Below are positions 15,248 through 24,736 of a DNA stretch of 33,839 nt, in pieces (position 1 is the first letter of the stretch; each line of letters begins with the position of its first letter). Source of the stretch: Spirochaetaceae bacterium (GTDB taxonomy: Bacteria; Spirochaetota; Spirochaetia; Treponematales; Breznakiellaceae); the NCBI GenBank assembly GCA_031276945.1, contig JAISMB010000014.1, positions 1 through 33,839 on the forward strand, in the 5' to 3' direction. The notes under the pieces are model-generated. The model did no database searches. It worked only from the letters and a program-made list of their open reading frames with translations, and was not told where the DNA came from. The translations under genes were made by a program, and so were the position numbers.

Positions 15248-15991
15248 GGTGTCGTCAAAAGGAAGGAAGATAAATCTGAGATAGAGAGCGGCGAGAAAGG
15301 AATCAGAGCGTTTAGCATAGCGAGTGGCGATACCTCTGTACTGTTTAAGCCACCGAAATACATGCTCAATAAGATGGTGCTTCTTATACAGCTCTTTGTC
15401 ATAAGTCCTTACTACCTTAATATCTCCTGCCCAGGCTGTGTTTATTACATGGTTCACGTCATACCCTCTATCTATCGGCAATCAAGACTTTTACCGATAA
15501 ACCTGCCATTAAGAGCTGTGCATAGGTGCAATCCGCCTTCTGCCCCGCTGAAACTATAATACGTACCGGCTTTCCCCTCTTATCTATAGCAAGGTGGACT
15601 TTGGTATTGAGCCCCCTTTTGTACGCCCTATTACTTGATTTCCTCCAACCGCTGTACATCCGTCTGTATGGACTTTGCTATACGTTGCATCTATCATAAG
15701 CCACTGGGTATCTAGTTCCCCGATAACTTCAGCGGCTATTGTTTTCCAGACATCCCTATCCCGCCAGCGGCAAAACCTTCGGTGTGTATTTTTCCAGTTG
15801 CCGTATTCAGGAGGTAAATCTCTCCAAGGAACACCGGTTCTGATAATCCAAGATACAGCATTGATAAAGCGTCGATTGTCATGAGCCATTCGACCCTGTT
15901 TACCTACCGCTCCTGGCAGTAAGTCTTTTATTTTTTCCCACAGCCTATCACTGATGTCGTGTCTGTGCAGTGCTTTTCCGTTTTCTTTCAT
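15242..15991 (-). pseudogene. IS5-family (IS427-type) transposase, broken
   Basis: DDE transposase read in three pieces. 15584-15991 gives MKENGKALHRHDISDRLWEK to TKGG; the frame then shifts -1 at AAAAGGGGG (normal for IS427-type elements, where frameshifting makes the full protein) into 15468-15659. A 4-bp duplication in GATAGATAGAGGG, where GATAGAGGG would keep the frame, then forces a stop, and the rest continues in 15242-15481. DDE residues lie in MIDATYS, IADRGYD and EHVFRW. Between DIKVV and YDKELYK about ten residues usual in the family are missing. The element is probably not autonomous now. Confidence 0.82.
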
Positions 15992-16030
15992 TTTGTTATC
16001 TTACTTTATTTCCTTACTTTTGACGACACC
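15248..16030 (-). mobile_element. IS5-family insertion sequence with terminal inverted repeats
   Basis: GGTGTCGTCAAAAG at 15248 is matched in inverted form by CTTTTGACGACACC ending at 16030, giving a 783-bp element. No convincing target-site duplication is seen: CCTAGGA lies on the left and CCCGAGG on the right. It sits just before the mature region of the ZinT-like gene. Related, more decayed copies are at 514-609, 14445-14564 and 21596-22204. Confidence 0.85.
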
Positions 16031-21177: not shown

Positions 21178-21595
21178 AAAGAGTTTGAATTCTACCCTTT
21201 CTCTGTTCAAGAAAGGATATTCCTGTTTCTTTAAGGCAAACATCATTGTCTTGCACATGAATATTCACCTCTGTTCACAGGCTTTAAGTTTCGACTATCC
21301 GTGCCGTACCGTTTCTTTCAGGCGCTCTCAAGCCTCTCTTAAAGATTGATTTACGCCTACAGATAAAAGTATGCCGGTTAACTGTTCAATCGTCAAGAGG
21401 CACAGTCAAAGGCTGTTTCTGCGTTCAGTTTTGTTTTCCAAACGGTGTACGACATCTAAATCCTACAATCTATACATACCTAGGCTAGGCTGTTCTTATT
21501 TTCTTCATATTTATATCAAAGGAACAATGAATAATTCATTCATTGTTCTTCCAAACGCCTTGCAACGTTTTTGTGCACAAACACATTGCAAGGGA
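21178..21595. other. Intergenic DNA with strong palindromes
   Basis: No gene is seen. GAACAATGAAT / ATTCATTGTTC (21522-21548) is an 11-bp perfect inverted repeat. CCTTGCAA / TTGCAAGG (21558-21565, 21586-21593) encloses the 12-bp palindrome TTTGTGCACAAA (21570-21581). Both stop right at the left end of the decayed IS at 21596. The rpsF promoter must lie at the left of this stretch, but no convincing -35/-10 pair is seen. Confidence 0.6.
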
Positions 21596-22204
21596 GTGTC
21601 TTCAAGAGGTGAGCAAGATACATCTGACATAGAAAGCGGTGCGGAAGGAATCGGTGCGTTTAGCATACCGAATGGTAATACCTTATACAGCTCTTTGTCA
21701 TAGCTCCGTGCCACCTTCCGACTGCACTTGGACGAGATACTACTTCAACGTTTTCCGCACAGGTGGCATCCACTACCCGGTTCAAATCATACCCTCTTAT
21801 CGGTAAACCCGCGCCTAAGCACATCGTATAGGCGCGATCCGCTTGCTGTCTCGCCGAAAGGATGAAACGTACCGGCTTCCCGCTTTTACCTATAAGCAAG
21901 ATGGAGTTTCGTAGTCAGTTCTCTTTTGTACGCCCTATCCCTTGATCCCTTCTGACCGCTCCACAACCGTCTGCATGAACTTTGATATAAGTTGAAGCTA
22001 TCATGAGCCAATCAGTATCCACTTCCACGATACCGCGTTGATAAACCGCCGTTGTCCTGTACCACTCGACCCCATTGCCCAGCCCTTCTCGGCAGTAATT
22101 TTTTATCTTTTTTCATAGTCTATCACTTATATTGTGTCTGTGCAGTGCTTTTCCGCTTTCTTTCATCTCTTTAGCTTACTTTATTTCTTTCCTTTTAACG
22201 ACAC
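21596..22204 (-). mobile_element. Decayed IS5-family copy
   Basis: GTGTC at 21596 and GACAC ending at 22204 match the ends of the IS at 15248-16030, and fragments of the same transposase can be followed on the minus strand (GKPVRFILSARQQADRAYTM, AENVEV, YDKELYK). Stops, frameshifts and deletions break it; about 609 bp of 783 remain. In contrast to the fuller copy it retains sequence (SRPSAVGR) between EVV and the YDKELYK region. Confidence 0.8.
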
Positions 22205-22232
22205 TATCTAGGATTATATTAACTTGTAACTC

Positions 22233-22261
22233 TTGACGTTTCAGTTAAAATGTGCTATACT
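22233..22261 (+). promoter_or_regulatory. Sigma-70-type promoter of the zinc-ribbon / rpsT operon
   Basis: TTGACG (22233-22238), a 17-base spacer and TATACT (22256-22261) match the consensus closely. They lie 39 bases before the start codon, just beyond the decayed IS. Confidence 0.8.
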
Positions 22262-22300
22262 ATTTTATATTCTTTGGTATAAAAGAAAGGAGGAAATTAT

Positions 22301-22480
22301 ATGGCACAGGCAGGAAAAATCACAAAGAATGCCCGGACTGGTACTAATACACAAAAAAATTTTTGTTCTTGTGGTGGTGAAATTACCATGAAAACAATTA
22401 TGGTAGACAATAAAATCAAAAATATTGCTGAATGTGGAAAGTGTAAAAGGACAGAACGTCGTCCTTCAGATTTTAAGTAA
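22301..22480 (+). CDS. Small zinc-ribbon protein, 59 residues, unknown function
   Basis: A complete small gene with AAAGGAGG seven bases before ATG 22301 and a near-consensus promoter upstream. The protein starts MAQAGKITKNARTG and carries CSCGG (Cys22, Cys24) and CGKC, a likely four-cysteine zinc ribbon, ending with a basic tail KRTERRPSDFK. Lysine and arginine content and its place 12 bp before rpsT suggest RNA or ribosome binding; that is inference. It is not a member of any ribosomal protein family I can name (it is not L31, L33 or L36). Confidence 0.8.
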   Translation: MAQAGKITKNARTGTNTQKNFCSCGGEITMKTIMVDNKIKNIAECGKCKRTERRPSDFK

Positions 22481-22492
22481 AGGTGGTCCCCT

Positions 22493-22768
22493 TTGGCAGG
22501 TAACTATAGTTCAGCGCAAAAGCGCCATAGGCAGAGTGAAGAGCGTCGCCTCCATAACAAATCAGTAAAGAGTAGTGTACGGAGCAGTGTTAAGAAATTT
22601 GTAGCTTTAGCTCAAAAAAAAGAAGTAAATGAAGCTTCTGTTGCACTGAAGATAATGATCAAGAAAATTGATGCCGCTACCCAAAAGGGTATTATTAAAA
22701 ATAATACAGCAGCGCGTAAAAAATCAAGAATGCAACGGCTTTTTAATGCCATAGCGGTATCCCAGTAA
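22493..22768 (+). CDS. rpsT: Small ribosomal subunit protein bS20
   Basis: Binds the base of the 30S subunit. The 91-residue product has the typical SAQKRHRQSEERRLHNKSVK start and KKSRMQRLFNAI end, all helical and basic. The start is TTG at 22493, with AGGTGG upstream, which may limit translation; a non-AUG start for S20 is also known in E. coli, where it takes part in autoregulation. Confidence 0.95.
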   Translation: MAGNYSSAQKRHRQSEERRLHNKSVKSSVRSSVKKFVALAQKKEVNEASVALKIMIKKIDAATQKGIIKNNTAARKKSRMQRLFNAIAVSQ

Positions 22769-22772
22769 TGTA

Positions 22773-23111
22773 ATGAACGGTAAAAAAATTACTAAGGCAG
22801 ATCTCGTTGAGTTAGTTTCACTAAAAGCTGGTTTTGATCGACGGGATGTGAAGCCAGTTATTGATATTTTGCTTGAGGAAATAAAAAGGGTCATGGTTAA
22901 TTCTATGACTATTGAATTACGGGGTTTTGGGACTTTTGAAGTAAAAGTGAGAAAGGGTAAACAAAAAGCACGAAACCCAAAAACAGGAGAACCGGTGTCT
23001 GTTCCTGCACATAGGGTGGCGGTTTTTAGGCCGGGTAAAGAATTGAAACGGGATGTATGGGTATTAACTAAAAAATCTTCGATAGATACCATTTCTGGTA
23101 GCGATGTGTGA
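22773..23111 (+). CDS. HU/IHF-family DNA-binding protein
   Basis: Nucleoid protein that bends DNA as a dimer. The 112-residue product has the HU fold: KKITKADLVELVSLKAGFDR, GFGTFEVKVRKGKQKARNP with the beta-arm, then KTGEPVSVPAHRVAVFRPGK. It is about 20 residues longer than HU, with an extra tail (KKSSIDTISGSDV). ATG 22773 follows the rpsT stop by four bases, and the stop TGA overlaps the lnt GTG start, so translation is coupled. Confidence 0.92.
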   Translation: MNGKKITKADLVELVSLKAGFDRRDVKPVIDILLEEIKRVMVNSMTIELRGFGTFEVKVRKGKQKARNPKTGEPVSVPAHRVAVFRPGKELKRDVWVLTKKSSIDTISGSDV

Positions 23112-24736
23112 ATATTTGGACAGATAGAAAAATCTGGGGGCGTTCTCAGAGTTTGATAATTAATTGTTTTGCACTACTAATAGGTGCTTTGCTTTTTGCT
23201 GGTTCTTTTCCAAATCTATTTTTTGAAAAAGGAATTGCTTTTTTAGCATGGTTAGCATATTTTCCGGTATTTTGGTTATTATACCGGATATCATTCCGTG
23301 CTTCATTTTTTTATGGAGCTTTGTATGGATATGTTGCCTATAGTTTGTTTAACTATTGGCTCAATGCCTTCCACCCACTTGCTGGGGTTATTGTTGATGT
23401 TATTTATCTCTTTTATTTTTTTATATTGTTTCCGGTTCTAAAAATTGCACTTGTTTTTTTCCCTAAACGTGGTTATTTAATTCAATTGCTTGTTTGGGTG
23501 AGTTTTGAATATATACGTACACTTGGTTTTTTAGGTTATCCTTATGGTATTACTGGATATTCCCAATGGTATATTTTACCAGTTATACAAATTGCTAGTC
23601 TTGTTGGTGTATGGGGAGTTTCCACCCTTGTATTATTTCCTTCTGTGTACCTTGCTGCTCTATTCTCTAGAGAAAATAAACTTAAAGGTATGCATTCATT
23701 TTTAATAGGCGAATGGATACCGGCCGCAATTTGGGGAATCTGTTTGGCAGGAACACTTATTTATGGTTTTATGTCTCCAGTTGATTATACCGGCGCGGCT
23801 ACTAGACGAATAGCCTTAGTCCAACATAATACCGATCCATGGCGCGGTGGACTTGTCGAATATCGTAGAAATTTCAATGTACTGCAAGAGCTTTCTAACG
23901 AAGCGCTTGCACAGAATCCAAAACCGGATTTAATTGTATGGTCTGAGACGGCTTTTGTACCGCGAATAGAATGGCATAAACAATATCGTACTGATCGAGA
24001 ATCGTGGCTCTTGGTTAAGGATCTTCTTGATTATCTTGCCTTACAAGAGGTTCCTTTTGTGATTGGTAATGATGATGCAAGTAAAGATCTTTTATTGAGT
24101 AAAGAGCTTGATGGACGGGTTGACTATAATGCAGTAATGCTTTTTAATAAAGGAGAGGTAGTTGATATTTATCGAAAGATACATTTAGTACCGTTTACTG
24201 AGTATTTCCCCTATCAAAAACAGTTGCCGTTTGTATATAATGCACTAATCCATGCTGATACCCATTTTTGGGAAAAAGGTACTGAAGTAACTGTTTTTGA
24301 AATCAATGGTTTGAAGTTTTCAAGTCCTATTTGTTTTGAAGATAGTTTTGGTTATTTATCGCGTAATTTTGTACGAAATGGCGCAGAACTTCTTGTTAAT
24401 TTAAGTAATGATGCATGGTCAAATAGTTTATCAGCACAGATGCAGCATTTTGCTATGGCAGTATTCAGGGCTGTGGAAAATCGTCGTTCTATGGTGCGTT
24501 CAACCGCCTCTGGTCAAACTTGTGCAATAGATCCTAATGGTAGAGTCATCAACATGGCAAAACCTTTCGCTGAAATACAGTTAACGGTTGATGTTCCTAT
24601 TGTGAAAAATGTTACGTCGTTTTACACCCGGTATGGTGATTTTTTGCCACGTATCTGTATTATTTTGATAATTCTTATGATACCAGCCGCGATTATCCGG
24701 TATATGATAAAGGTTAGAAATCATGGCAAAGACTGA
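23108..24736 (+). CDS. lnt: Apolipoprotein N-acyltransferase
   Basis: Inner-membrane enzyme that adds the third acyl chain to lipoproteins. The 542-residue product has about six N-terminal membrane helices, a nitrilase-like periplasmic domain with Glu280 (WSETAF), Lys357 (YRKIHLVPFTEYFPY) and Cys409 (PICFEDSFG) as catalytic triad, and a C-terminal helix. It starts at GTG 23108, overlapping the HU stop by four bases, and its 3' end overlaps bactofilin by 14 bp. It fits a lipoprotein-rich spirochaete. Confidence 0.95.
   Translation: MNIWTDRKIWGRSQSLIINCFALLIGALLFAGSFPNLFFEKGIAFLAWLAYFPVFWLLYRISFRASFFYGALYGYVAYSLFNYWLNAFHPLAGVIVDVIYLFYFFILFPVLKIALVFFPKRGYLIQLLVWVSFEYIRTLGFLGYPYGITGYSQWYILPVIQIASLVGVWGVSTLVLFPSVYLAALFSRENKLKGMHSFLIGEWIPAAIWGICLAGTLIYGFMSPVDYTGAATRRIALVQHNTDPWRGGLVEYRRNFNVLQELSNEALAQNPKPDLIVWSETAFVPRIEWHKQYRTDRESWLLVKDLLDYLALQEVPFVIGNDDASKDLLLSKELDGRVDYNAVMLFNKGEVVDIYRKIHLVPFTEYFPYQKQLPFVYNALIHADTHFWEKGTEVTVFEINGLKFSSPICFEDSFGYLSRNFVRNGAELLVNLSNDAWSNSLSAQMQHFAMAVFRAVENRRSMVRSTASGQTCAIDPNGRVINMAKPFAEIQLTVDVPIVKNVTSFYTRYGDFLPRICIILIILMIPAAIIRYMIKVRNHGKD

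Follow-up and report, generated by a model that had tools for sequence, protein, structure and literature searches.

What is the 59-residue, four-cysteine protein whose gene stands directly ahead of the gene for ribosomal protein bS20 in the genome of a Spirochaetaceae bacterium? The window analysed here is a stretch of 33,839 nt (contig JAISMB010000014.1), and an earlier note, made from its letters alone, guessed at a ribosome- or RNA polymerase-associated factor belonging to no family that it could name. Based on homology, conservation of contact residues, a fold match, distribution, and gene neighbourhood, we consider it very probable that this is bL38, a ribosomal protein of spirochaetes, in a form with four cysteines (referred to below as C4). 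This gives a name to a protein that has no library match, and assigns it a site on the ribosome that can be tested.

The gene and its surroundings

The open reading frame at 22,301–22,480 (+) encodes MAQAGKITKNARTGTNTQKNFCSCGGEITMKTIMVDNKIKNIAECGKCKRTERRPSDFK, a product of 59 aa with cysteines at residues 22, 24, 45, and 48 (CxC...CxxC). It is preceded by a sigma-70-type promoter-like site located by motif scan (22,233–22,261, +; TTGACG-17-TATACT, matching the consensus at 10 of 12 positions, with TG before the −10 hexamer) and by a ribosome binding site, AGGAGG, 7 nt before the ATG (22,288–22,293, +). On the same strand follow rpsT, for bS20 (22,493–22,768; TTG start; PF01649, 5.8e-24), a gene for an HU-family DNA-binding protein (22,773–23,111; PF00216, 1.1e-25), and lnt, for apolipoprotein N-acyltransferase (23,108–24,736; PF00795 and PF20154), which overlaps the HU gene by 4 nt; bactofilin and rho genes come after these, as identified by Pfam. 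The four-cysteine frame, the promoter-like site, the ribosome site, and the downstream rpsT and HU genes are all where the earlier note put them.

Judged by its conservation, this is a real gene and not a chance frame: the protein is encoded by 52 of 58 genomes, its own included, and the versions from the 51 others are 55–74% identical to that of the window. Across 30 aligned members, K9, N10, R12, T13, C22, C24, G25, G26, A43, C45, C48, R50, E52, R53, P55, and F58 are invariant. The single promoter match is weak by itself because the 2.1-kb region scanned is rich in such sites (10, vs. 5.0 ± 2.1 in shuffled sequence). Among 119 homologous loci, the best promoter score within 150 nt upstream is at least 10/12 in 74, vs. 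~3% of mononucleotide shuffles, and a Shine-Dalgarno-like motif (loosely defined, and without a shuffle control) occurs in 115. The promoter-like site and the ribosome site are the only features that would suggest large-scale production of the protein.

The gene-poor stretch just before the promoter (21,591–22,212) holds the decayed remnant of an element that is dispersed in the genome and has IS4/5-type transposases (DUF4096) as relatives. The remnant lies on the minus strand, carries deletions and stops, and ends ~20 nt before the −35 hexamer. A search of the genome with BLAST returned 87 rows for this element, including the stretch itself, mostly 68–85% identical and representing pieces rather than whole copies; a second copy in the window occupies 15,249–16,029.

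Homology to Borrelia bL38 and two forms of the family

No Pfam or NCBIfam model matches the window protein, and two PHROG matches (E 0.047 and 0.16) were judged meaningless. Its 30 relatives have only weak library matches (the best have E 5.5e-4 for Pfam and 2e-4 for NCBIfam); those to the NCBIfam L31 model (eight of 30 members, best 0.0094) and to other zinc-ribbon models were judged to reflect the cysteine pattern. A search of the PDB with phmmer, at E values up to 10, returned a single chain, 8fmw_Ai, which is bL38 from the 50S subunit of Borrelia burgdorferi (E 1.5e-4, residues 21–58). With a profile of 30 C4 relatives from the Treponematales, the same chain was found at 4.4e-9 (the next chain scored 0.75), and with a profile of 26 members that also included the Borrelia form, it was the sole match, at 1.1e-22. 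In direct comparison with a Borreliaceae-type member, BLASTP aligned the window protein at 22 of 54 identical positions (E 4e-12), and hhalign gave the C4 profile a probability of 98.3. One of the sequences in our set (L180) contains exactly the 38 residues of 8fmw_Ai shown in the PDB alignment.

The homology extends over nearly the whole length of B. burgdorferi bL38 (BB0162; chain Ai of 8fmw and 8fn2; PMC10618245). According to the article text, this protein was initially an unassigned density; homology to its F. johnsoniae namesake did not lead to it, and mass spectrometry assigned it to BB0162 (PMC10618245). The earlier note had itself pointed to a match with a known family as the result that would speak against its view, and B. 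burgdorferi bL38 provides that match; its statement that no family could be named fails in substance, since a relative of solved structure exists, although the curated libraries scanned hold no model.

The window protein and B. burgdorferi bL38 share the motifs SKN, GG, A.C, and R(R/K)P, as well as the same predicted fold. However, where the window protein has C22, C24, and C48, the Borrelia protein has S, W, and S, and the two also differ at E52 (A in Borrelia) and S56 (R in Borrelia). We read 120 genome-derived sequences along with the solved chain; 52 came from the search of relatives' genomes and 68 from 70 further loci, two of which (L166 and L167) were left out as incomplete at contig ends. 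There are 73 rows with the C4 site; C22, C24, C45, and C48 are present in every one of them, four or more cysteines having been the criterion for entry to this group. Another 46 rows, including the solved chain, have a single cysteine, equivalent to C45 (the C1 form); their first knuckle reads S.WGG and their second mostly C..(T/S)GN. Two intermediate rows, L194 and L206, have two and three cysteines, respectively.

In a tree built without the metal-site columns, the C1 rows fall on one side of a branch with SH-aLRT support of 96, and both intermediate rows are on the C4 side. The tree is unrooted, is based on 50 columns, and has few well-supported branches. Because the C1 rows lie to one side of one branch, a single change would separate the forms, although an unrooted tree does not say in which direction. 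New here, on the reading of these sequences, is the division of the bL38 family into the C4 form found in the window and the C1 form that includes Borrelia. The C4 form is probably zinc-binding, although the one homologue of solved structure keeps just one of the four cysteines. We found no description of the C4 form in our literature searches. Borrelia bL38 is now placed within a class-wide family that has a C4 form, and spirochaete bL38 could be annotated with a family model made from rows of both forms. Among the proteins that can now be named is that of a 1.1-Mb Treponema-type genome (G044).

Several ribosomal zinc-ribbon proteins (bL31, bL33, bL36, and uS14) exist in a cysteine-bearing and a cysteine-poor version (C+ and C−), and the two are often paralogues in one genome under zinc control. 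The bL38 family resembles these in having a cysteine form and a cysteine-poor form. Unlike such paralogue pairs, both copies are C4 in the three genomes read that have two strong matches to the broad profile (G373, with L207 and L272; G464, with L273 and L274; G508, with L275 and L276).

The name bL38 is also borne by a protein from another group, and it is important to distinguish the two. Searching with a DUF4295-like probe gave 7jil_4 (“50S ribosomal protein L38”), from what we take to be the F. johnsoniae ribosome, at 2.4e-19, as well as a chain named DUF4295. This F. johnsoniae protein (DUF4295, PF14128) shares with the window protein its name and its small size. Its 50S location is described as similar to that of B. 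burgdorferi bL38, with a displacement of 14 Å and a distinct internal structure (article text of PMC10618245). By sequence, the two showed no kinship: hhalign gave a probability of 0.1 over one aligned column, the window protein has no Pfam match, and PF14128 is over its cut-off in none of 59 genomes of the class (19 have matches at E ≤ 1 below the cut-off). The absence of 7jil_4 from the lists of structural matches to the window model proves nothing. In sequence, then, the spirochaete bL38 family is distinct from its Bacteroidota namesake.

A candidate site on the 50S subunit

In the B. burgdorferi structure, the residues of bL38 described as contacting 23S rRNA are K34, K36, R49, K50, and R52, and the first nine residues of the protein are poorly resolved (article text of PMC10618245). 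The chain in the 8fmw_Ai alignment is offset by nine residues, and with this correction the contacts map to K38, K40, R53, R54, and S56 of the window protein, four of the five being basic. Counting across the family (the solved chain and the two intermediate rows left out), K or R occurs at position 38 in all 73 C4 and all 45 C1 rows and at position 40 in 69 of 73 and 43 of 45, respectively; R53 is present in all 118 rows, as is K or R at position 54. The fifth position, that of Borrelia R52 and window S56, is basic in 40 of 45 C1 rows vs. only 20 of 73 C4 rows, and this counts against the bL38 assignment. As far as sequence can tell, the conserved contact residues are evidence beyond the cysteine pattern.

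The uL6 side chains touched by B. burgdorferi bL38 are given as T111 and E114 (article text of PMC10618245). Both are absent in the three Treponematales uL6 proteins compared, which again counts against the bL38 assignment. E114 is present in five of five genomes with the C1 form and two of five with the C4 form, and it is no specific marker of bL38, because it also occurs in two of four genomes of the class without bL38 and in one of five genomes outside the class. The numbering was checked in two Borreliaceae-type genomes, in which exactly T and E were recovered at 111 and 114; a search of the 82%-complete assembly to which the window belongs yielded no uL6. With the partner residues absent in Treponematales, the exact seating on uL6 may differ, so the C4 form in this order may make a different contact with that protein.

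Given these correspondences, a mechanism can be proposed. The C22-x-C24 and C45-x2-C48 pairs would hold one zinc ion, which would fix a two-stranded ribbon (strands 27–35 and 38–45 of the model) followed by a short C-terminal strand and helix. K38, K40, R53, and R54 would bind 23S rRNA at H95 (the stem of the sarcin-ricin loop) and H97, as K34, K36, R49, and K50 do in B. burgdorferi, placing the protein beside uL6 and uL14. There, bL38 would form part of the 50S structure, adjacent to the place where translation GTPases land. It is probably made together with bS20, from a putative shared transcript. We infer that it is on the ribosome of this organism and that it may have some effect on assembly or on the GTPases.

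The protein could instead have the fold of bL38 without being a permanent 50S protein, and act as a ribosome-associated factor in hibernation, assembly, or quality control. The SKN.R motif of the N-terminal tail is strongly conserved in the C4/C1 alignment, in a part of the protein that is poorly resolved in B. burgdorferi, so that a role beyond docking is possible, and the Borrelia structure came from hibernating ribosomes (article text of PMC10618245). However, the bL38 density is reported there to be the same in a separate 50S class, and the protein is called a stable component; moreover, almost every genome of the class has the gene, often with rpsT close by. We therefore regard a factor of this kind as unlikely.

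Structure prediction is consistent with the protein being bL38. The AlphaFold2 model of the window protein has a mean pLDDT of 74.9, with residues 2–14 below 50, and DSSP assigns strands at 27–35 and 38–45, a two-residue strand at 51–52, and a three-residue helix at 55–57. This corresponds to a beta hairpin with a small third strand and a short C-terminal helix, at middling model confidence; in both sequence and model, the CxC and CxxC knuckles lie at the hairpin ends, as in a four-cysteine zinc ribbon. The first-ranked Foldseek match is 8fmw_Ai (probability 1.00, TM-score by target 0.79), with an E value of 4.0e-3 that is not below 0.001 (the second rank has 0.43). The same chain is ranked first by VIA-align 2 (Z 5.7, 46 residues, rmsd 3.5 Å; next Z 3.4). 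It should be noted that the program warns that matches with Z below 8 may reflect no more than a common arrangement; the identity is carried by the sequence evidence.

The next VIA-align matches are the I chains of RNA polymerases (for RNA polymerase II, presumably RPB9), with Z 2.0–3.4 and rmsd of about 1.5–2.5 Å over 36–40 residues; for those of RNA polymerase II, which rank second, the rmsd is about 1.6–2.1 Å over 36–39 residues. These, together with weak matches of two of 30 members to Pfam Zn_ribbon_Elf1 (best E 5.5e-4), would favour a small zinc-ribbon transcription factor or polymerase accessory protein of the RPB9/Elf1 type. The bL38 match is better both by sequence, including the rRNA-binding residues that are not cysteines, and by Z (5.7 vs. 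3.4), despite the lower rmsd of the polymerase chains over fewer residues, and the C1 rows keep the rRNA-binding residues though their metal site is gone. We take the I-chain matches to be those of general zinc ribbons and have rejected the polymerase alternative as very improbable. Of the two guesses in the earlier note, it is the ribosomal one that gains support, through homology to an integral 50S protein of B. burgdorferi, whereas the polymerase-associated one falls away, as does the idea of a nameless family. That the protein is a transposon- or phage-borne zinc ribbon brought in with the upstream IS remnant is hardly credible, for although the decayed IS4/5-type element ends ~20 nt before the promoter and seven of 30 members weakly match the NCBIfam IS1/IS1595 zinc model (best 0.0015), the element stops short of the promoter, and the gene is kept throughout the class, with one match in most genomes.

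Distribution and gene neighbourhood

At E ≤ 0.05, 234 of the 247 class genomes searched carry the bL38 gene. Among the nearest genomes, six of 35 from the window's own family gave no match. In three of these (G003, G010, and G014) rpsT was also not found in the assembly, and in the others (G018, G022, and G031) the contig ends 54, 6, and 14 nt, respectively, upstream of the rpsT match; for these reasons, all six were taken for assembly gaps. A later search across the whole family found the gene in 105 of 112 genomes, the exceptions being G031, G014, G458, G459, G470, G500, and G502. Two other families of the class had no match at E ≤ 0.05, and none at E ≤ 0.001 in a repeat search: f52 (three of three genomes: G203, G250, and G305) and f67 (four of four: G223, G288, G300, and G325), with a partial match (0.0115) inside a longer frame in G223. 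As rpsT is present in the five of these genomes checked (G203, G250, G305, G223, and G288), f52 and f67 may truly be without bL38, through real loss or early branching. Five further misses in the class are G218, G228, G241, G254, and G322.

In phylum-wide samples searched with a broad profile at E up to 0.001, 80 of 197 genomes match, all of them in the class, and the C4 profile gave one weak match outside the class among 149 genomes searched (G132, E 0.0044). In a scan of genome contigs, the best 80 of 425 relatives are titled as spirochaetes, except for one titled only “bacterium.” Breznakiella homolactica is among the carriers of the C4 form (L065).

The forms also differ in their surroundings. 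The gene for bS20 lies just downstream (within 600 nt) in 48 of 75 C4-type loci, including that of the window, with its rpsT–HU order, vs. none of 47 loci of the C1 form to which Borrelia belongs; in these, rpsT is absent from the flank altogether, four of them having <600 nt of downstream sequence. The query for bS20 was the window's own protein, and strongly diverged versions could have escaped it. Within the window's family, rpsT starts no more than 600 nt downstream of bL38 in all 29 loci. In the rest of the order (23 loci), it is 1.0–1.2 kb downstream in 14, within 600 nt in three, and not in the flank in six; among C4-type loci beyond the order (also 23), it is within 600 nt in 16, at 1.0 kb in one, and not present in six. 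In a named genome collection, the proportion within 600 nt is 72 of 80 loci. The earlier note had raised the question of whether the gene is absent from this site in other treponemes. The bL38–rpsT arrangement holds throughout the window's family but not in f3, a family of the same order that has bL38 but no rpsT within the 1.5-kb flank in six of seven loci.

We lean slightly toward a history in which two unrelated proteins named bL38, the zinc ribbon of the Spirochaetia and the DUF4295 protein of the Bacteroidota, came independently to lie beside the sarcin-ricin stem, with the metal site of the ribbon swapped once, on the branch leading to Borrelia and its C1 relatives, for a core that has a tryptophan and no metal; there, the gene stands away from rpsT–HU.

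Some individual loci show other arrangements. With regard to the genomes with two C4 copies, the L207 copy of G373 is beside a helix-turn-helix-like gene (judged by eye) and is not near rpsT, and for G464 and G508, mixed bins could also explain the second copy. At six loci where bL38 does not directly precede rpsT, a PlsC-like acyltransferase gene is close to it, as identified by Pfam in L051 (PF01553, 1.4e-21) and by eye in L049, L020, L201, L202, and L205.
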